DNA of 64,000 bases from Peribacillus kribbensis DSM 17871 (GTDB lineage: Bacteria > Bacillota > Bacilli > Bacillales > DSM-1321). Positions 13,897 to 61,952 of this stretch are shown here, piece by piece. The notes beneath the pieces are model-generated. The model was not told the origin of the DNA. It was given only the letters and a program-made list of their open reading frames with translations, and did not search any database. The stretch spans positions 1 to 64,000 of the forward strand of contig NZ_AUMQ01000030.1 of NCBI RefSeq assembly GCF_000430765.1. The letters are read 5' to 3'. The translations under genes and the position numbers were made by a program. Positions within the stretch are counted from its first letter, which is position 1. Every line of letters starts with the position of its first letter.

Positions 13897-14769
13897 ATGA
13901 AAAGCGTTATGTCAAACAAATTAGTAATCAGCCTTTATGTACTTCCTGCATTAGCCCTTATTTTGCTCCTCATTTATATCCCGATCGTCCTTACTGGCTA
14001 TTATGGATTAACAGACTGGAATGGAATTGGGCAGGCGAAGTTCATTGGACTTGAGAACTACATCAATCTGGTAAAGGATAAGATGTTCTGGGAAAGCGCC
14101 TGGCATTCATTGCTTTTAGGTATATTCTCCACGATCAGCCTCATTGGCTATCTGATTTTATCATTGATCTTGGCAAGTAAAATCAAGGGAGCCAATATAT
14201 TAAGGAAGATCTATTTAGTCCCCATGCTATTATCATCTGTTGCAATTGCCCAGCTCTGGGCTAAAATCTTTGACCCTTCAAACGGTATGATCAATCGATT
14301 GCTCATGATGTTTGGAGTGGATAATCCGCCTCTTTGGCTGGCAGATTCCAAGCTCGTATTATACGCCCTGTTTATTCCAATTGTCTGGCAGTATGCAGGA
14401 TTTTATATCATTATCTTCTATGCAGCATTAAAGAATATTCCGGAAGAACTCATCGAAGCAGCAAAAATTGATGGCGCCAATCCATTTCAGATTGCCTATC
14501 GGATTAAGATTCCCTTGATATCAGGAGTTATTAAGGTCATGGTGATTCTCGCCATCGTAGGATCTTTGAAATACTTCGATTTAATCTTTGTCTTGACCGG
14601 AGGCGGACCGAACCATGCCAGTGAGGTAATGGCATCCTATATGTATACCGAAGCCTTCACCAAATATAATTTTGGATACGGAAGCGCCATAGGATTTGGC
14701 CTGCTTGTAATCTGCCTGATCATGACCTGGCTGATCCAAAAGCTTTTATCATCAAAAGAAGATTTTTAA
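13897..14769 (+). CDS. ABC sugar permease (MalF/UgpA type)
   Basis: 290 residues with six predicted transmembrane segments. The cytoplasmic coupling loop EELIEAAKIDGANPFQIAYRIKIPL matches the EAA motif of binding-protein-dependent permeases. The N-terminus KLVISLYVLPALALILLLIY is the usual first helix. It pairs with the next gene to form the channel. No ATPase is encoded in the operon; Bacillus CUT1 importers commonly borrow the shared ATPase MsmX. Confidence 0.94.
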   Translation: MKSVMSNKLVISLYVLPALALILLLIYIPIVLTGYYGLTDWNGIGQAKFIGLENYINLVKDKMFWESAWHSLLLGIFSTISLIGYLILSLILASKIKGANILRKIYLVPMLLSSVAIAQLWAKIFDPSNGMINRLLMMFGVDNPPLWLADSKLVLYALFIPIVWQYAGFYIIIFYAALKNIPEELIEAAKIDGANPFQIAYRIKIPLISGVIKVMVILAIVGSLKYFDLIFVLTGGGPNHASEVMASYMYTEAFTKYNFGYGSAIGFGLLVICLIMTWLIQKLLSSKEDF

Positions 14770-14794
14770 ATGTAAACAAGGGGAGTGAAACAGG

Positions 14795-15691
14795 ATGAGT
14801 AATGTTGCTTATGATTTACAAACGAAAACAACCGTTCCCAATTCCTATAAAACCAGCAGCACACTAGGAAAACGAATTGGCTTTGGCATCCTCTATTTGA
14901 TATTGGGCATTATTGCGGTAGTGCAGATTTATCCCTTGATATGGCTGTTTCTTTTTTCACTAAAAACGAATCAAGAAGTTTTTGGGATGTCCCCATTTTC
15001 CTTTCCGCATGATCCGCAATGGGGAAACTATGCCAAGGCATGGACCCAGGGGCACATCAACCTTTACTTTTTCAATAGTGTCCTGTATACCGTCATAGCA
15101 GTAGTATTAACGGTGATCCTGGCAAGCTTTGTGACATTTGCGGTTACACGGATGAGCTGGAAGCTAAGCGGCCTGGTGCTCGGCTTATTTATGGCAGGGT
15201 ATATGATTCCGCTTCATTCTACGCTGATCCCTTTATTCAGCTTTTTCAAAACGCTTCATTTAATCAACAACCCGCTGTCCATTATCCTGTCGTATGTGGC
15301 GTTCAATCTGCCGATTACGATCATGATTCTTTCCGGATTTTACAGGACACTGCCGCGCGAAATCGAGGAAGCGGCTGTCATGGACGGCTGCTCCATTCAT
15401 AGGATATTCTTTCAGATCACACTTCCTATGACGATGCCTGTCCTTTCCACGACCATCATTATCAACATGATTTATAACTGGAATGAATTTGTATTCGTGA
15501 ACACATTTATCAGCTCTGATAAATGGAAAACCATCACGGTTGGCGTGAATAACTTTGTTGGACAGTATTTAACAGACTGGGGCGCAATCGGTGCAACCCT
15601 CATAATCAGCATCATCCCGGTATTGATTGCCTTCTTCATCCTGAGCGACCGGATTGTAGAAGGAATTGCCGCTGGATCTGTAAAAGGATAA
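14795..15691 (+). CDS. ABC sugar permease (MalG/UgpE type)
   Basis: 298 residues, six membrane segments, EAA loop REIEEAAVMDGCSIHRIFFQITLPM. A 30-residue hydrophilic N-terminal extension precedes the first helix. It follows the other permease by 25 bases and ends the operon; a strong terminator lies 38 bases downstream. Confidence 0.94.
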   Translation: MSNVAYDLQTKTTVPNSYKTSSTLGKRIGFGILYLILGIIAVVQIYPLIWLFLFSLKTNQEVFGMSPFSFPHDPQWGNYAKAWTQGHINLYFFNSVLYTVIAVVLTVILASFVTFAVTRMSWKLSGLVLGLFMAGYMIPLHSTLIPLFSFFKTLHLINNPLSIILSYVAFNLPITIMILSGFYRTLPREIEEAAVMDGCSIHRIFFQITLPMTMPVLSTTIIINMIYNWNEFVFVNTFISSDKWKTITVGVNNFVGQYLTDWGAIGATLIISIIPVLIAFFILSDRIVEGIAAGSVKG

Positions 15692-15728
15692 GAAATTAAA
15701 AATGGGGCTTGATAAGAGTCCGGTATAG

Positions 15729-15773
15729 ACTGCAGGCAAAATTGATGAAAATTGAGTTTGCCTGCAGTTTTTT
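15729..15773 (+). terminator. Terminator of the sugar ABC operon
   Basis: ACTGCAGGCAAA / TTTGCCTGCAGT, a perfect 12-bp stem, followed directly by T6. Confidence 0.9.
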
Positions 15774-15801
15774 AGTCTGATTCGAAAATGAGGCTGCATA
15801 A

Positions 15802-15851
15802 GTTCCATTCCATGCGCTGCGCTTTCCGAGGGGCGGGCGGTGAGCCTCCTG
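15802..15851 (+). repeat. Interspersed repeat family A, truncated copy
   Basis: Holds only the left part of the family A element (CTTTCCGAGGGGCGGGCGG, then TGAGCCTCCT). The right half is missing and unrelated sequence leading into the GATC array follows. Confidence 0.75.
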
Positions 15852-15898
15852 CCGATTGCAGAAGTTAAATGGTGCTGCATCACATTAAAGAGAAAATT

Positions 15899-16090
15899 GG
15901 ATCATTAAGCGGGAAAAAGGATCATTACATCAGCTTCGGGATCATTGAGTAGAAAATAGGATCGTTTAGGTGAATCCTCGATCATATTTTGGCTATCCGG
16001 ATCATTCCATTAATTTAGTGATCAATAACAAAAAAATCGGATCATAAAAGTGAAAAAACGGATCATTATTTTTACATTCCGGATCATAAT
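15899..16090 (+). repeat. Ten-unit GATC motif array with 20-21 bp period
   Basis: An octamer close to GGATCATT begins at 15899, 15919, 15939, 15959, 15979, 15999, 16019, 16039, 16060 and 16081. All ten units contain GATC, six have the exact octamer or differ only at its last base, and the 12 bases between octamers are unrelated to one another. The period is 20 bp for seven steps and 21 bp for two. It is not a multiple of three, so it is not a coding repeat. Two helical turns per unit would place each motif on the same face of the DNA. Confidence 0.85.
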
Positions 16091-16234
16091 CATTCAGCAC
16101 TCCCTTGTTCTGCTGATCTTGGCCTACCAGCTATTCATTCAACAAAGACATACTCTTTGGGATTGCTGAACGGTGTCAAGCATATCTCTACCACACCTGT
16201 TTTGCCATTTTATAGTTCACACTCAATTTTCCAG

Positions 16235-16258
16235 ATTGAATTTTTTTAGATAGGGTAT
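16235..16258 (+). promoter_or_regulatory. Possible sigma-B promoter
   Basis: GGGTAT at 16253-16258 matches the sigma-B -10. The best -35 is only ATTGAA at 12 bases spacing, so support is weak. It fits the general-stress identity of the next gene. Confidence 0.3.
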
Positions 16259-16293
16259 TTAATTAGTACATCAAGTAAAAGGAGATAATAATT

Positions 16294-16725
16294 ATGGAAA
16301 AAAGAGTTGTGGGTGTATATGAGAATGCGAATGAGGCGAAGGCAGCTGTAGAGGATCTGCAGAATAAAGGATATAAATACGAAGATATTTCGATAGTAGC
16401 GAAAGATATAGAAGATTTGGGGAAAGCTGCGGATGAAGTGAAGCCGAAGGAATCAGACGGTATGATTGCGGGTGCGGCAACCGGAGGGGCGGTTGGCTTG
16501 ACCGGCCTGTTTTTAGGTCTCAGCTATCTTGCGGTCCCTGGAATCGGGCCAATTTTAGCTGCCGGTCCGATTATTTCTGTATTGGGCGGGGCTGTGGCCG
16601 GCATGGCTACCAACGCCGGGGGATTGACCAAGGCCCTTCAGGATTTAGGGCTCAGTGAAGAAGAATCACGCCAATACCAGGATGATATAAAAAACGGGAA
16701 GATCATTGTTGCGGTTAAGGAGTAA
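16294..16725 (+). CDS. General stress protein with YflT-like domain
   Basis: 143 residues. The N-terminal half (VVGVYENANEAKAAVEDLQNKGYKYEDISIVAKD) is the YflT/general stress protein 17M fold. The middle is glycine- and alanine-rich and hydrophobic (AGAATGGAVGLTGLFLGL; GPIISVLGGAVAGMA) like a membrane-associating hairpin. The C-terminus (LGLSEEESRQYQDDIKNGKIIVAV) is the usual closing motif. The biochemical function is unknown. Possibly sigma-B controlled. Confidence 0.85.
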   Translation: MEKRVVGVYENANEAKAAVEDLQNKGYKYEDISIVAKDIEDLGKAADEVKPKESDGMIAGAATGGAVGLTGLFLGLSYLAVPGIGPILAAGPIISVLGGAVAGMATNAGGLTKALQDLGLSEEESRQYQDDIKNGKIIVAVKE

Positions 16726-54117: not shown

Positions 54118-55231
54118 AAATGAGGCCATATGCGGTAGCCACCCCGTCTTATGCTAGTCGGAAGGCTGCTTTACAAAGAGTCGTGTTTTTAAAAAAGCTA
54201 TACATCATCCTGCTTTACATTTGTTTTATTCGAAAAGCACCGTTCTCCGCTTTTAGGGTTATCCAGCTCCGAACTGAGACCCTCGAGCATAAGCCAATCA
54301 GTCCATGGGAAGGAGGGCGCTTCCCACGGCCCGCTCATCTTATGCTTTTCAGGTCTCTGCTTTTCAATAATTGTTATTAAAATGAAAATAATCTAATGTA
54401 CATCCTGCTGCGTACTTGTCCGCTTTTGAAAAGCACCGTTCTCCGCTTTTAGGGTTATCCAGCTGCGAACTGCCTCCCTCCCGTCATAAGCCAGGCTGTC
54501 TATGGGAAGGAAAAGCACTTCCCATAGCCACCCCGTCTTATGCTAGTCGGAAGGCTGCTTTTCAAAGAGTCGTGTTTTTAAAAAAGCTATACATCATCCT
54601 GCTTTACATTTGTTTTATTCGAAAAGCACCGTTCTCCGCTTTTAGGTATCCAGCTCCAAGCTGACACCTTCGGTCATAAGCCAATCGCCACTTAAAGGCA
54701 AAAAGCGCCTTTTAGTGCCGCTTGTCTTATGCCTGTCAGGTGTCTGCCTTCCTCTTAGGTTAATTTCCTAATGGTTTTCAGCAGCATTATTCTTCTGACT
54801 AGTAACATTAGGAAGGCACCGCTTTCCGCTTTTAGTGGTATTATCCAGCTGCGAACTGCCTCCCTCCCGTCATAAGCCAGGCTGTCTATGGGAAGGAAAA
54901 GCACTTCCCATAGCCACCCCGTCTTATGCTAGTCGGAAGGCTGCTTTTCAAAGAGTCGTGTTTTTAAAAAAGCTATACATCATCCTGCTTTACATTTGTT
55001 TTATTCGAAAAGCACCGTTCTCCGCTTTTAGGTATCCAGCTCCAAGCTGACACCTTCGGTCATAAGCCAATCGCCACTTAAAGGCAAAAAGCGCCTTTTA
55101 GTGCCGCTTGTCTTATGCCTGTCAGGTGTCTGCCTTCCTCTTAGGTTAATTTCCTAATGGTTTTCAGCAGCATTATTCTTCTGACTAGTAACATTAGGAA
55201 GGCACCGCTTTCCGCTTTTAGTGGTATTATC
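54118..55231 (+). repeat. Cluster of family B hairpin repeats
   Basis: About seven full or partial copies of a 130-150 base element. Each runs AAAGCACCGTTCTCCGCTTT (or GCACCGCTTTCCGCTTTTAG), ATCCAGCT, CATAAGCC, an internal hairpin (TGGGAAG / CTTCCCA, or CACTTAAAGGC / GCGCCTTTTAGTG), CTTATGC and TCTGC. Outer arms are self-complementary (GAGACC / GGTCTC; GACACCT / AGGTGTC). ORFs inside are repeats of each other and lack SDs. An inverted copy is nested in the element at 40774-41097. Confidence 0.85.
54455..55226 (+). repeat. Exact 386-bp tandem duplication
   Basis: 54455-54840 is repeated at 54841-55226 with no difference that I can find by eye. Each unit carries two family B hairpins. The perfect identity points to a very recent duplication or an assembly artefact. 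The second copy ends about 50 bases before the spoVR start. Confidence 0.9.
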
Positions 55232-56884: not shown

Positions 56885-57229
56885 ATGCAAACAGCTTCTG
56901 CTGATATTGAAACGGCCGCGAACCTATTAAAGCTGTTGGGCGATAAAACCCGTCTAGGCATCATGAAAGTCGTTTCCGAACAGGAATGCTGTGTTTGTGA
57001 ATTTGTGGAGCTCTTTCAGATGACCCAGCCTGCCGTCAGCCAGCATCTAAGAAAATTAAAGGATGCAGGGTTAGTAAGGGAAACGAGAAGAGGGCAATGG
57101 ATTTTCTATTCCTTGAATTCTGACCATCCACAGTTTGGGTTTGTTCGTTCCATCATTGAACGGATTCCGAATCAGACATACAAATTAGATGAATTAGCAG
57201 CACAAGCAAAACGGATCTGCTGTGACTAA
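56885..57229 (+). CDS. arsR: ArsR-type arsenic-responsive repressor
   Basis: 114 residues, winged HTH. The metalloid-sensing Cys cluster is at the recognition-proximal helix: [13 protein letters not shown], matching the ELCVC box of ArsR. DNA-binding helix [19 protein letters not shown]. The ATG at 56885 is preceded by GGAGGTGA. First gene of arsR-arsB-arsC-hesB. Confidence 0.93.
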
Positions 57230-57246
57230 ATAGGAGGATACATATA

Positions 57247-58545
57247 GTGGTTTCTGTAATTTTAGCGTGTGTGATCTTCCTGATCACTTTGACGCTTGTC
57301 ATTTGGCAGCCAAAGGGGCTGGGGATCGGATGGACTGCCTGCGGCGGGGCTATACTTGCTCTTGTGGCTGGAGTCGTTGACTTCCATGATGTTGTCAGCG
57401 TAACTCATATCGTTTGGAATGCAACACTTACGTTTATAGCCATTATTATTATTTCATTAGTTTTGGACGAGATCGGCTTCTTTGAGTGGGCCGCTCTTCA
57501 TATGGCAAGGGCAGCCAAAGGGAATGGCATTAAGATGTTTATCTACGTCAGCATCTTAGGAGGACTTGTGTCAGCGTTTTTTGCGAACGACGGTGCAGCT
57601 CTGATTTTAACTCCTATTGTTTTAGCCATGGTTCGAAACTTAAAGCTGGAAGATACATTTATTTTTCCGTTTATCATGGCCAGCGGATTTATTGCTGATA
57701 CAACATCATTACCGCTTGTAGTAAGTAACCTGGTCAACATTGTATCTGCGGATTTCTTTGGAGTTGGGTTTGCAGAATATGCTTCACGGATGATCGTTCC
57801 TAATCTATTCTCATTAATCGCAAGTATTCTTGTACTTTACCTGTACTTCCGAAAAAGCATACCGAGGCATTACGATACAGTTGAATTGAAAGATCCTCTT
57901 GATGCCATAAAAGATAGAGGGATGTTCCGATTGTCCTGGCTCGTCCTGGCCCTTCTCCTGGCTGGATACTTCATCAGTGAATGGGTGGACGTTCCCGTTT
58001 CCTTTATAGCCGGTATTATAGCGGTCTTTTTCTTACTGATGGCCAAACAAAGCAAAGCTGTCAATACCAGAACCGTTGTAAAAGGGGCGCCATGGGCCAT
58101 CGTATTCTTTTCTATAGGGATGTATGTAGTCGTCTATGGACTGCGTAATGTAGGATTAACGAATATTTTAGCAGATGTTATTCATGGAGCTGCCAGCCAG
58201 GGATTATTTATAGGCACCATTTCAATGGGATTTATTGCTGCTATCCTTTCGTCCATCATGAATAATCTGCCTACTGTTATGATCGATGCATTGGCCATTG
58301 CACATACACATACATCTGGGATTGTTAAAGAAGGACTTATCTATGCCAACGTAATTGGTTCCGATTTAGGACCTAAAATCACACCGATCGGCTCGCTGGC
58401 CACCTTGCTTTGGCTGCATGTTTTATCTCAAAAAGGAGTTAAAATCTCATGGGGAAGGTATTTTAAAACCGGCATTATATTAACTATTCCCACTCTATTT
58501 ATTACTTTGGCCGGATTATATATCTGGTTATTGATTCTTCATTAA
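57247..58545 (+). CDS. arsB: Arsenite efflux permease ArsB
   Basis: 432 residues, about 11-12 membrane segments, GTG start behind AGGAGG. ArsB-family blocks: [53 protein letters not shown] and [27 protein letters not shown]. Exports arsenite or antimonite using the proton gradient; no ArsA ATPase is present. 17 bases after arsR. Confidence 0.96.
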
Positions 58546-58575: not shown

Positions 58576-58995
58576 ATGGCACAAAAAACCATTTACTTCT
58601 TATGTACGGGAAATTCCTGCCGCAGTCAAATGGCGGAAGGATGGGCAAAAAAATATCTTGGGGAGGAGTGGCGGGTCCTTAGTGCTGGTATTGAAGCACA
58701 TGGATTAAACCCAAACGCTGTCAAGGCAATGAATGAAGCCGGAATCGACATCTCAGGACAGACATCAGATATTATTGATTTAGAAATCTTGAATCATGCA
58801 GACTTTGTTGTTACGCTGTGCGGAGATGCCGCTGATAAGTGCCCAATGACTCCTCCTCATGTAAAGCGGGATCACTGGGGCTTTGATGATCCGGCTAAAG
58901 CTCAGGGCTCCGAAGAAGAAAAATGGGCTTTCTTCCAACGTGTACGCGATGAAATTGGGGACCGCATTAAAACCTTTTCTGAAACCGGTAAATAA
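58576..58995 (+). CDS. arsC: Thioredoxin-coupled arsenate reductase ArsC
   Basis: 139 residues, low-molecular-weight phosphatase fold. P-loop [16 protein letters not shown] with nucleophile Cys10. The relay cysteines are Cys82 and Cys89 in [12 protein letters not shown], the arrangement of the plasmid pI258 enzyme. Converts arsenate to arsenite for export by ArsB. AAAGGAG precedes the ATG. Confidence 0.97.
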
Positions 58996-59049
58996 TCATC
59001 CCCATAGGGTAGGAACTAATAAGACATAATCCATTAAATGGAGAGGAAG

Positions 59050-59334
59050 ATGAAATTGAATATTACAGATCAGGCTCGCGACATATTGCAGCAGATGTTC
59101 GAAAAACACAATGCCAGGAATATTCGTGTATATTTTGCAGGCTATGGCTGAGGACAGCCAAGAGTTGGGTTGGCTCTGGATGAGCCAGATCAGGATGATA
59201 TTAAGGAAACAATCAATGGAATACTTGTGGCAATCGACCCAAGGATTCAGCTTAACACAGAAACACTGATTCTTGATTTAGCTGGAGACAACTCAGGACT
59301 TGTACTGCTGGGGAATACAGGGAATTGCTGTTAA
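59050..59334 (+). CDS. HesB/IscA-like protein with in-frame TGA (predicted selenoprotein)
   Basis: 94 residues if TGA at 59149-59151 is read as selenocysteine (residue 34). Upstream: MKLNITDQARDILQQMFEKH, then VYFAGYG-U-GQPRVGLALDEP, the place where HesB/IscA proteins have GxGCGGPxxGLALDE. The frame continues to TAA 59332 and ends with the GNCC that supplies the C-terminal metal cysteines. After the TGA, CCA-A-GAG (59158-59164) can pair with CTCTGG around a G-rich loop starting 14 bases after the TGA, as in bacterial SECIS elements. HesB-like selenoproteins are a known class. GGAG lies 6 bases before the ATG. Last gene of the ars operon; iron-sulfur or metalloid handling is inferred. The alternative is a nonsense mutation. 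Confidence 0.82.
59152..59179 (+). promoter_or_regulatory. Candidate SECIS hairpin in the HesB-like gene
   Basis: Directly after the TGA: a 6-base lead, a 6-bp stem with a bulged A (CCAAGAG with CTCTGG) and a loop of nine bases containing GGG. An alternative stem AGCCAA/TTGGCT is also possible. The loop position fits selenocysteine insertion elements recognised by SelB. Confidence 0.55.
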
Positions 59335-59338
59335 CATC

Positions 59339-59368
59339 AAAAAGAGCCTAGAGCGGGCTCTTTTTTTC
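59339..59368 (+). terminator. Terminator of the ars operon
   Basis: AAAAAGAGCC / GGGCTCTTTTT with T-run, 5 bases after the HesB-like stop. Its position supports that gene as a real, full-length operon member. Confidence 0.9.
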
Positions 59369-59470: not shown

Positions 59471-59836
59471 ATGGAGAATGATGTATGTGAGGTGAACTGT
59501 TACCATGAGGATACAGTCAGCCGGGTTCAAGCAAAGTTAAAAGAGCAGAATACAAAAGAAGTGACTTCTATCTTTAAAGCTCTTGCTGACGAAACAAGAC
59601 TAAAGATTGCTTATGCATTAACCCTGGAAGACGAACTGTGTGTCTGTGATGTGGCAAATATTGTAGGAGCTTCTACAGCAACAGCTTCCCACCATCTGAG
59701 ACTTCTTCATAACCTCGGTCTAGCCAAATATCAGAAAAGGGGCAAATTGGTTTATTATTCACTGGATGATGATCATGTAATCCAGTTAGTCCAGCTTGCC
59801 TTTACTCACTCTATGGAGGTGAAAAGCCGTGTCTGA
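59471..59836 (+). CDS. cadC: CadC-type Cd/Pb/Zn-sensing repressor
   Basis: 121 residues. All four CadC metal ligands are in place: Cys6 and Cys10 in the N-terminal arm (MENDVCEVNCYHED) and Cys57, Cys59 in ELCVCDVANIVG. Recognition helix STATASHHLRLLHNLGLA. The GAGGTG-type SD is 5-6 bases before the ATG. It controls its own operon through the two flanking operators. Its stop overlaps the cadA GTG by 8 bases. Confidence 0.94.
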   Translation: MENDVCEVNCYHEDTVSRVQAKLKEQNTKEVTSIFKALADETRLKIAYALTLEDELCVCDVANIVGASTATASHHLRLLHNLGLAKYQKRGKLVYYSLDDDHVIQLVQLAFTHSMEVKSRV

Positions 59837-61952
59837 AGCGAGTAAAAAGGTATACCGCCTTTCTGGTATTTCTTGAGCAGGCTGTGCCAATAAGTTCGAG
59901 AAGAACTTGCAGCACCTGGATGGTGTTGAGGATGCAAAGGTTAATTTCGGTGCGTTAAAGCTTACTGTTTATGGAGATACAACCATTCAAGAAATCGAGA
60001 AAGTCGGGGCTTTTGAAAATATAAAAGTGGTCCCTGAAAAGGAAGTGATCCCACAGGAAAAGATTCCTTTTTTAAAGAAACATGGAAATGTGGTCATATC
60101 CTTATTCTTTGTCTTAATGGGATACCTGTCATACTATACGTATGGAGAAGACAGCGCGCAGGCCATTTTAATGTTTGCCTTGGCAATCCTGATCGGCGGA
60201 TATTCTCTGTTTCGTGCAGGTGTAAAAAATCTTATTCACCTGGATTTTGATATGAAGACGCTGATGAGCATCGCAATCATTGGAGCGGCTCTTATAGGAG
60301 AATGGAGCGAGGGGGCAGTGGTAGTCATTCTCTTTGCCATAAGCGAGGTCCTTGAATCATTCTCCATGGAGAAAGCTCGTCAGTCCATCCGTTCACTCAT
60401 GAATATTGCTCCTAAAGAAGCCCTTGTCCGCCGGAACGGAACAGAAGTTTTGATTGAAGTGGATGATATCGCTGTGGGAGATATCATGGTCGTTAAGCCG
60501 GGGCAAAAGATTGCATTGGATGGGATGGTTATAAGCGGAATATCCTCCGTAAATCAGGCAGCCATCACAGGTGAGTCAGTGCCGGTAGAAAAAAACATAA
60601 ACGATGAGGTATTTGCAGGCACCCTTAATGAAGAAGGATTATTGGAAGTAAAGGTAACTAAAAAGGTTGAGGATACGACAATCTCAAAAATCATTCATCT
60701 AGTAGAAGAAGCCCAGGGTGAAAGAGCCCCTTCACAAGCTTTTATTGAAAAATTCGCCATGTATTATACTCCTGTAATCATGTTTACAGCTTTACTTGTT
60801 GCCATCATTCCGCCACTTTTGTTTGATGGATCATGGAACACGTGGGTCTATCAGGGCTTGTCTGTTCTTGTGGTGGGATGTCCATGTGCCCTGGTCATTT
60901 CCACGCCTGTTTCCATTGTCACAGCAATCGGAAATGCAGCGAAAAAAGGTGTACTGATTAAAGGCGGTATTTATCTTGAAGAGATGGGATCATTAAAGGC
61001 CATCGCCTTTGATAAAACAGGAACCTTAACAAGAGGTATTCCCGTTGTCACAGAGTTTATGATGGCGGATTCCAGCATAGATAGAGACGAGTTATTCGCC
61101 AGGATTGCGGCTTTAGAGCATCGTTCTCAGCATCCGCTCGCCGCCTCAGTAATGAGAAAAGCCGAAGAAGAAAACCTTTCCTATGCAGACATATCAGTGG
61201 AAGAATTCACCTCGGTTACCGGCAGAGGAATTAAAGGGCGTATAGATGGTGAGCTGCTTTATATCGGCAGTCCCAATTATTTCTTAGAAGACTTAGGAAT
61301 CAGTATGTCTCCTTCCATTCAAGGCTATATTGAAGAATTACAGTCTAAGGGGAATACAGTGATGGTCAGCGGGAATTCTTCAGAAGTATTGGCTCTTATC
61401 GCTGTGGCAGATGAAGTCAGAGAAAGCAGCCGATCAGCCATCTCAAAGCTCCATTCACTAGGAATTAAAAAGACCATTATGCTGACTGGCGATAACCGCA
61501 GCACCGCTGAAGCAATCGGCGGCAAAGTGGGGGTTTCCGATATCAAAGCAGAACTAATGCCGCAGGATAAACTTGAGTTAATCAAAGTTTTACGGAAGGA
61601 GTACGGCCGTGCTGCCATGGTAGGGGACGGTGTCAATGATGCCCCGGCACTCGCTGCTTCAACAGTGGGTATTGCCATGGGAGGCGCCGGGACGGACACG
61701 GCCTTAGAGACCGCAGATGTTGCCCTTATGGGAGATGACTTAAGCAAGCTTCCATTTACCATAAAACTCAGCAGAAAAGCTCTTAGGATCATCAAGCAAA
61801 ACATTACTTTTTCTATTGGCATCAAGCTATTGGCTCTTCTCCTGGTCATACCAGGGTGGTTAACGTTGTGGATTGCCATATTCGCGGATATGGGTGCAAC
61901 ACTCATAGTGACCCTGAATGGTCTGCGGCTGCTCCGATTAAAAGATAAATAA
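59829..61952 (+). CDS. cadA: Cd/Zn/Pb P1B-type ATPase with in-frame TGA in the metal-binding motif (predicted selenoprotein)
   Basis: 707 residues from GTG 59829, which has GGAGG 9 bases upstream and overlaps cadC. The TGA at 59874-59876 (residue 16) falls in the first position of the N-terminal HMA metal motif: [20 protein letters not shown] instead of GxSCxxC. The rest is standard: actuator TGES, transmembrane CPC ([11 protein letters not shown]), phosphorylation site DKTGT, HP motif SQHPLA and hinge GDGVND. A hairpin AAGTTC/GAACTT with loop GAGAA starts 15 bases after the TGA and places G at +22, as in SECIS. Starting at ATG 59907 would delete half the HMA domain and leave no SD. Exports Cd, Zn or Pb. 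Confidence 0.85.
59877..59919 (+). promoter_or_regulatory. Candidate SECIS hairpin in cadA
   Basis: After the TGA, CAGG...TGC pairs with GCA...CCTG across an internal loop, and the tip is AAGTTC-GAGAA-GAACTT. The apical loop begins with G 22 bases after the TGA. Confidence 0.6.

Follow-up and report, generated by a model that had tools for sequence, protein, structure and literature searches.

A predicted HesB-like selenoprotein at the end of an arsenic resistance operon in Peribacillus kribbensis and its relatives

HesB-like selenoproteins have been known from bacterial selenoproteome surveys since at least 2006. As far as the available text of these sources goes, 11 were counted in one survey, which tabulates 3 selenoproteins for Firmicutes/Bacillales (PMC1794560), and 90 were found in 86 organisms in another (PMC5029168); a 2026 review equates the family with TIGR01911, gives its motif as UxGP and describes its function as largely uncharacterised (PMC13188914). 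The original prediction for the locus described here had pointed to such surveys, correctly. HesB genes have also been placed in ars operons. According to the accessible portions of the papers, the ars1 operon of Bacillus sp. CDB3 comprises eight genes (arsRYCDATorf7orf8), of which orf7 is HesB-like (PMC4562236, PMC5481582), and an Exiguobacterium ars operon contains a hesB gene (PMC8779447), so that the further remark that a role in arsenic or selenium stress was not known to be described needs correcting. In the same portions of these three papers, selenoprotein status is nowhere mentioned for either gene. No publication uniting a selenocysteine (Sec) HesB with ars operons was found among the papers examined. 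While its components are known separately, a Sec HesB as a recurrent ars-operon gene of Bacillales appears to be new.

The locus lies in a 64,000-nucleotide stretch of the Peribacillus kribbensis DSM 17871 genome (the window, meaning the whole stretch of DNA that was analysed). Its features are as follows.

56885-57229, + strand: arsR, ArsR/SmtB-family repressor, first gene of the operon (NF033788, 98.9 bits, cut-off 55)
56870, + strand: alternative start of the arsR frame (open reading frame list)
57247-58545, + strand: arsB, arsenite efflux permease (TIGR00935, 739.8 bits, above cut-off)
58576-58995, + strand: arsC, thioredoxin-type arsenate reductase (TIGR02691, 236 bits, above cut-off)
59040-59046, + strand: Shine-Dalgarno-like GGAGAGG ahead of the hesB ATG (sequence)
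59050-59334, + strand: hesB(Sec), predicted 94-residue selenoprotein of the IscA/HesB fold, last gene of the ars operon (profiles, structural model, paralogues)
59149-59151, + strand: TGA, predicted selenocysteine codon, residue 34 (alignment with TGC/TGT of Cys homologues, Sec machinery)
59170-59188, + strand: SECIS-type hairpin, 7-bp stem 59170-59176/59182-59188, loop UGGAU (covariation)
59326-59331, + strand: Cys93-Cys94 at the C terminus, proposed metal or metalloid ligands together with Sec34 (comparison of termini)
59339-59365, + strand: intrinsic terminator-like hairpin closing the ars operon (11-pair stem and T-run)

All four genes are on the + strand, arsC and hesB are separated by 54 bp, and the terminator-like hairpin begins 5 bases past the hesB stop codon. 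A terminator scan of the region returned four terminator-like sites, against 2.6 in shuffled sequences, and none in the arsC-hesB interval; the seven promoter-like sites in the region are not above the shuffled mean of 8.3. Given the common strand, the short gap, and a terminator after the gene with none before it, hesB is predicted to be a component of the ars operon. Translation of the frame gives IRVYFAGYG-U-GQPRVGLALDEP...GNTGNCC. The original description of a 94-codon frame with a Shine-Dalgarno sequence, a single TGA at codon 34 in the context GYG-U-GQPRVGLALDEP, a terminal GNCC, a terminator 5 bases past the stop and a position after arsR, arsB and arsC was borne out in every particular, the gene order with the help of family models. 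Elsewhere in the window, an intergenic segment (54136-55140) contains direct repeats, with two 300-nt copies at 100% identity lying 386 nt apart and three copies of a 122-nt repeat at 99%-100% identity.

The absence of a Sec machinery would have told against the gene, as the original prediction recognised. The machinery is present: the host genome (5.05 Mb, 38 contigs) contains a tRNA-Sec (60.1 bits, above cut-off; the runner-up match, at 42.2, is below it) together with selA (566 bits), selB (342 bits) and selD (403 bits), each above its cut-off, and all four are located on a single contig, C13. The selD gene itself has one TGA. Three HesB copies are found in the genome, each with one TGA; the paralogous matches at C1:338189-338464 and C12:73532-73783 are 89% and 49% identical to the window copy, respectively. 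TGA occupies the same column in 113 of the 155 HesB matches parsed from the fetched loci, and in a set of 100 loci from the order the codon at this position is TGA in 72, TGC or TGT in 22 and a Glu or Asp codon in 6. Recurrence in two genomic paralogues and in 113 of 155 matches indicates that the TGA at codon 34 is not there by chance. Furthermore, when the gene is compared with three close relatives, most differences are at third codon positions, before the TGA as well as after it; the differences after it at the first, second and third positions number 5, 4 and 11, 7, 4 and 22, and 5, 8 and 29.

The occurrence of tRNA-Sec across genomes follows the residue. Of the 94 genomes that supplied the 100 order loci, 80 were searched. 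Where a TGA-type HesB is present, 50 of 52 genomes gave a match above cut-off; where the fetched loci include Cys, Glu or Asp HesB only, 1 of 28 did, namely G165, which has a Cys-form HesB yet possesses tRNA-Sec. When the search was repeated for eight genomes, five had a match above cut-off and G412, G073 and G208 had none; the TGA-type genomes G412 and G073 lacked one even though more candidates were scored in the repeat. In these two genomes the TGA-type HesB (L170 and L175, respectively) is ars-linked and the downstream sequence still fits the hairpin. Other variants were also noted among relatives. An otherwise open, ars-linked HesB frame of Bacillus sp. V3-13 has TAA at the Sec codon (L047, near 6097), and additional truncated or broken HesB(Sec) copies are present in Peribacillus deserti (L040, 11211-11342) and in a genome of the same genus (G002, contig C51).

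To examine the hairpin, 92 distinct TGA-type 48-mers were compared. The stem is 7 bp long, begins at nucleotide 22 if the T of TGA is taken as nucleotide 1, with an onset 18 nt past the TGA, and carries a 5-nt loop that is mostly UGGAU. Pairing is retained in 95.8% of the 644 cells of the 92 sequences. Base changes on both sides of a pair are found in 29 cells; shuffles give 4.5, with none of 500 reaching 29, and the stem in slid positions gives 2 to 18. The number of pairs with a double-sided change, three, is not significant when taken alone, being reached in 74 of 500 shuffles. All 92 Sec sequences use CTG for the Leu located at the top of the stem and loop, whereas at the same site in ars-linked Cys relatives the commonest Leu codon is TTA (5 of 15). 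The hairpin is mostly missing from Cys, Glu and Asp relatives: the mean number of paired positions out of 7 is 6.74 in ars-linked and 6.68 in unlinked Sec forms, compared with 3.29 in ars-linked Cys, 2.00 in unlinked Cys and 4.00 in Glu/Asp forms. Folding energy is less informative. The window hairpin is unremarkable (z -1.02; 24 of 200 shuffles fold equally well), and single-sequence energies do not cleanly separate Sec from Cys forms, with mean z values of -0.45 and -0.88 for ars-linked and unlinked Sec, +0.50 and -1.28 (n = 5) for ars-linked and unlinked Cys, and -0.39 for Glu/Asp. The proposal of a hairpin after the TGA is upheld by comparison. Together, the Sec machinery, the TGA-containing paralogues, the kept hairpin and the co-occurrence with tRNA-Sec across genomes strongly support the prediction that hesB is a genuine selenoprotein gene whose UGA at codon 34 is read as Sec.

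The next cluster in the window contains an arsR-type gene and a CadA-like P1B ATPase, itself a predicted selenoprotein gene (59829-61952, + strand). In the ATPase, a TGA (59874-59876) stands where the HMA metal site has its first Cys (GIS-U-AGC) and is followed by a hairpin (z -1.90); among 12 loci of the family, including that of the window, the residue is encoded by TGA in 7 and is Cys in 5. Cation ATPases with a UxxC motif are a selenoprotein family listed in the available part of the 2026 review (PMC13188914).

The window protein is recognised poorly by existing family models. It scores 25.7 bits against a cut-off of 26.3 for PF01521 (Fe-S_biosyn) and falls below both HesB selenoprotein models, with 34.6 of 66.35 bits for TIGR01911 and 41.7 of 85 bits for NF038090 (E 1.1e-10). 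All 11 proteins compared (the window protein, its two paralogues and 8 others) are below both cut-offs, the best reaching 61.2 of 85 and 53.1 of 66.35 bits, and such genes are for this reason easy to miss. An AlphaFold2 model calculated from an alignment of 79 sequences has a pLDDT of 87.6, and its matches among solved folds at E <= 0.001 are to IscA (1r94, 1s98 and 1x0g, among them forms with and without cluster), HI1723, AQ_1857 and SufA, with DsrR next. Sequence profile matches agree (AQ_1857, HI1723, IscA/YfhF). The modelled structure thus shows the hesB protein to have the IscA/HesB (A-type carrier) fold. The last residues of the model have a pLDDT of approximately 49, and the three-ligand geometry of Sec34, Cys93 and Cys94 therefore stays putative. 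The C-terminal motif of IscA is CxC. At the A-type ligand positions of the window protein the first is Sec, in the place that we take to be that of the first Cys ligand of IscA, and the C terminus is CC instead of CxC.

In the order set, the terminal CC is found in 24 of 24 ars-linked Sec proteins and 15 of 17 ars-linked Cys proteins, the other two ending in a single Cys, and co-occurrence of the Sec or Cys residue with terminal cysteines in the ars-linked set is as expected of one binding site. Of the Sec loci without ars genes, 39 of 48 also have it (the other 9 with one Cys), which indicates that the site is not arsenic-specific. Glu/Asp proteins in this set have CC in 0 of 6 cases and no Cys within the last 8 residues. 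Their genes, L140, L142, L150 and L154 (Glu) and L167 and L169 (Asp), directly follow arsC, and no arsD or arsA match was obtained in these loci, in contrast to four Cys-form loci assigned to their genus code (g42 of f39). Since this code is shared by all six, they may represent a single event. Had all homologues next to ars genes been degenerate, the original prediction would have been undermined. Overall they are not, with the reservation that these 6 of 47 ars-linked loci carry Glu or Asp and lack the C-terminal cysteines.

A locus was taken as ars-linked when tblastn found ArsB, ArsC, ArsD, ArsA, Acr3 or aquaporin on the same strand at most 4.8 kb upstream; the ArsD, ArsA, Acr3, aquaporin and dual-specificity phosphatase queries were verified by family models. 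By this definition 47 of the 100 order loci have ars genes upstream, which is not a strict frequency because loci were taken by rank from the listed matches and crowded genera were thinned. Linkage spans 16 family codes of the order, one of them (f7) through arsR and arsD matches only, and the idea of the ars neighbourhood as a one-off was rejected on these counts. Sorted by residue, ars linkage holds for 24 of 72 order loci with Sec and 17 of 22 with Cys, and for all four with Glu and both with Asp, so that the comparison of Sec and Cys neighbourhoods proposed with the original prediction does find ars genes recurring beside both. Among the named loci, 21 Sec and 2 Glu (Jeotgalibacillus) are linked. 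The unlinked ones comprise 7 intact Bacillales Sec genes and one fragment (the 37-residue L040, counted as named, Sec, without ars) as well as 9 Sec and 10 Cys matches from Peptostreptococcaceae. Named and order loci are not summed because they overlap in part, the Glu loci L065 and L069 encoding the same proteins as L140 and L154. Of the 155 matches parsed, 153 were tabulated, and L047 (TAA, ars-linked, in two fragments) was excluded. L179 and L180 are linked via ArsD alone; L052, with a phosphatase gene upstream and no listed ars gene in range, was scored unlinked. Over all ars-linked rows of the named, order and own-genome sets, which overlap in part, the nearest upstream gene of the ars cluster lies at a median distance of 46.5 bp and within 150 bp in 70 of 72.

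A frequent gene order is arsR - (arsB, acr3 or aquaporin) - arsC - arsD - arsA - (phosphatase) - hesB, and the permease often found nearby is Pfam ArsP_1. The host itself has a second operon of the order arsR-arsB-arsC-hesB(Sec), with the C1 paralogue at its end. Matches were also obtained in 19 plasmid records, and gene regions and codon were examined in four. A Priestia megaterium plasmid has arsR-arsB-C-D-A-phosphatase followed by a gene annotated as 'adhesin' (hesB, Cys form), one from Bacillus arachidis has arsR-acr3-C-D-A followed by an 'iron-sulfur cluster biosynthesis family protein' (Cys form), and one from Cytobacillus pseudoceanisediminis has a TGA-type gene downstream of arsR, arsC, arsD and trxB. 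Among the 14 annotated plasmid relatives (H6-H19), the label is 'adhesin' in 9 and 'iron-sulfur cluster biosynthesis family protein' in 5; 'adhesin' looks like a misnomer, because H7, H10 and H11 sit in ars clusters and have Cys. In five Cytobacillus plasmids no gene is annotated under the HesB match, in a gene table that is incomplete, and in one of them the table is also blank where efflux and arsA genes are expected. A Bacillaceae-like ars operon with HesB(Sec) was further noted on a contig titled as a Bacteroidetes MAG (L059); misbinning is likely and transfer possible.

Taken together, the gene neighbourhoods show the predicted HesB to be a recurrent terminal gene of ars operons in many Bacillales families, with Sec as the predicted residue where the host decodes Sec and usually Cys where it does not. 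A role in arsenic or selenium stress had been suggested for the gene. The arsenic part is supported by gene context across the 16 family codes; for selenium stress as such, no supporting sign was seen among the loci and literature examined. Neighbours common to unlinked Sec HesB loci gave no usable functional clue. On a protein tree (94 columns, 130 rows), ars linkage has to change 14 times and the residue in the Sec column 10 times; with 55 of its 127 inner branches open, the tree is too poorly resolved to settle the direction of Sec/Cys change or the number of recruitments.

The overall best explanation, to which we would assign a probability of just under one half, is that the product is an As(III)-handling protein of the ars operon acting through Sec34, Cys93 and Cys94. 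De-repression of ArsR by arsenite would co-express hesB with ArsB and ArsC. In the available part of an Exiguobacterium study, fold changes at 8% relative to 0% (read as salt) are 8.2 for HesB, 13.3 for arsR, 5.3 for arsA and 6.3 for arsD (PMC8779447), and this joint rise lends support from elsewhere to co-induction. With less certainty, Sec34 and Cys93-Cys94 may serve as the three soft ligands of an SeS2 site for As(III), and this site could hold As(III) or hand it to the efflux system, as a buffer or carrier in the manner of ArsD. Sec, expected to be deprotonated at neutral pH, would bind As(III) more tightly than Cys. Retention of the C-terminal Cys by ars-linked Sec and Cys forms and its absence from Glu/Asp forms argue for such a site; the six ars-linked loci that keep the gene without Cys or Sec at these positions argue against it. 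Carboxylates are poor As(III) ligands, and the Glu/Asp versions therefore argue against the view that the role is purely one of thiolate-As(III) binding in all lineages. To our knowledge, the IscA/HesB fold family is known for Fe-S carriage and not for arsenic. Since Sec with terminal Cys is common away from ars genes, it is quite possible that a general metal or Fe-S function has been recruited to arsenic defence.

Three other readings have to be weighed against an As(III)-handling role. A decaying gene, with the TGA as an ordinary stop or the product of a sequencing error, is extremely improbable. Truncated or broken HesB copies in close relatives, TAA at the Sec codon of one ars-linked homologue and the two TGA-type genomes without a tRNA-Sec above cut-off could be cited in its favour, but third-position bias among close relatives persists after the TGA, the hairpin covaries, the same TGA is present in 113 matches and the Sec machinery is complete, and the candidate was rejected. 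A redox helper, whose selenol at residue 34 would reduce arsenic-thiol adducts or regenerate the thioredoxin-dependent ArsC, is unlikely. The motif CxxU/UxxC is missing around the Sec, the best structural matches are IscA/SufA and not thioredoxin-like, and Glu or Asp occupies the Sec position in 6 of 47 ars-linked order loci; these points weigh against the placement of trxB within the same ars cluster on two plasmids and the opinion, in the accessible text of the review, that most uncharacterised selenoproteins probably have redox functions (PMC13188914).

The most serious competitor assumes an A-type carrier of Fe-S or iron that delivers clusters or mends those hit by As(III) or oxidants, with Sec giving resistance to over-oxidation or to As(III) capture; we regard it as plausible, if somewhat less than an even bet. 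It suits the fold family better than an As(III) site does, as seen from the structural matches to IscA (with and without cluster), HI1723 and SufA, the profile matches to AQ_1857, HI1723 and IscA/YfhF and a PF01521 score slightly below cut-off, and in the host genome 198 bp separate the third Sec HesB from the iron uptake genes feoA and feoB downstream of it. On the other hand, no Fe-S assembly gene was seen by eye beside hesB at the 7 ars-linked of 11 loci inspected or in four plasmid regions, the terminal CC replaces the CxC of IscA, and 6 ars-linked loci of the order lack all three ligands. The third copy (L014, 13532-13807; gene at C12:73532-73807, outside the window) is divergent and has a single C-terminal Cys; the feoB that follows it is covered by two overlapping frames, 14222-14956 and 14928-16301, which each correspond to a portion of the FeoB model.

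Returning to As(III) binding, the broader claim that HesB forms a widespread, poorly annotated selenoprotein subfamily for arsenic defence in Bacillaceae and relatives, whose selenolate and two C-terminal thiolates bind As(III), is tentative and more likely wrong than right. If true, it would represent genetically encoded selenium-arsenic chemistry, interchanged with the Cys form in step with the gain or loss of Sec decoding in a lineage. The terminal position in ars operons of many soil Bacillus relatives points to a possible role of selenium chemistry in arsenic defence, and natural Sec, Cys, Glu and Asp versions of one site would make the role of Sec assayable through an arsenite trait.

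Compared with known systems, the window protein resembles the TIGR01911 (HesB_rel_seleno) and NF038090 (IscA_HesB_Se) family in its IscA/HesB fold and in the Sec at the first conserved Cys followed by GxP, and differs in its terminal CC, its ars-operon location and its scores below the cut-offs. It matches the A-type carriers IscA and SufA in fold (best TM-score on the query, 0.77) and in where the first ligand sits, but it ends in GNCC where IscA has CxC, and identity to the matched chains is 15%-25%. A comparable gene context is that of orf7 in CDB3 ars1, likewise HesB-like and located in a Bacillus ars operon next to a gene for a dual-specificity phosphatase; in the available text orf7 is not called a selenoprotein. 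ArsD is a small soluble ars-operon protein with cysteines for As(III). Analogous to this metallochaperone, HesB is small, soluble and encoded in ars operons, with cysteines that could hold As(III); the two nevertheless belong to separate families, and many operons carry both ArsD and HesB.
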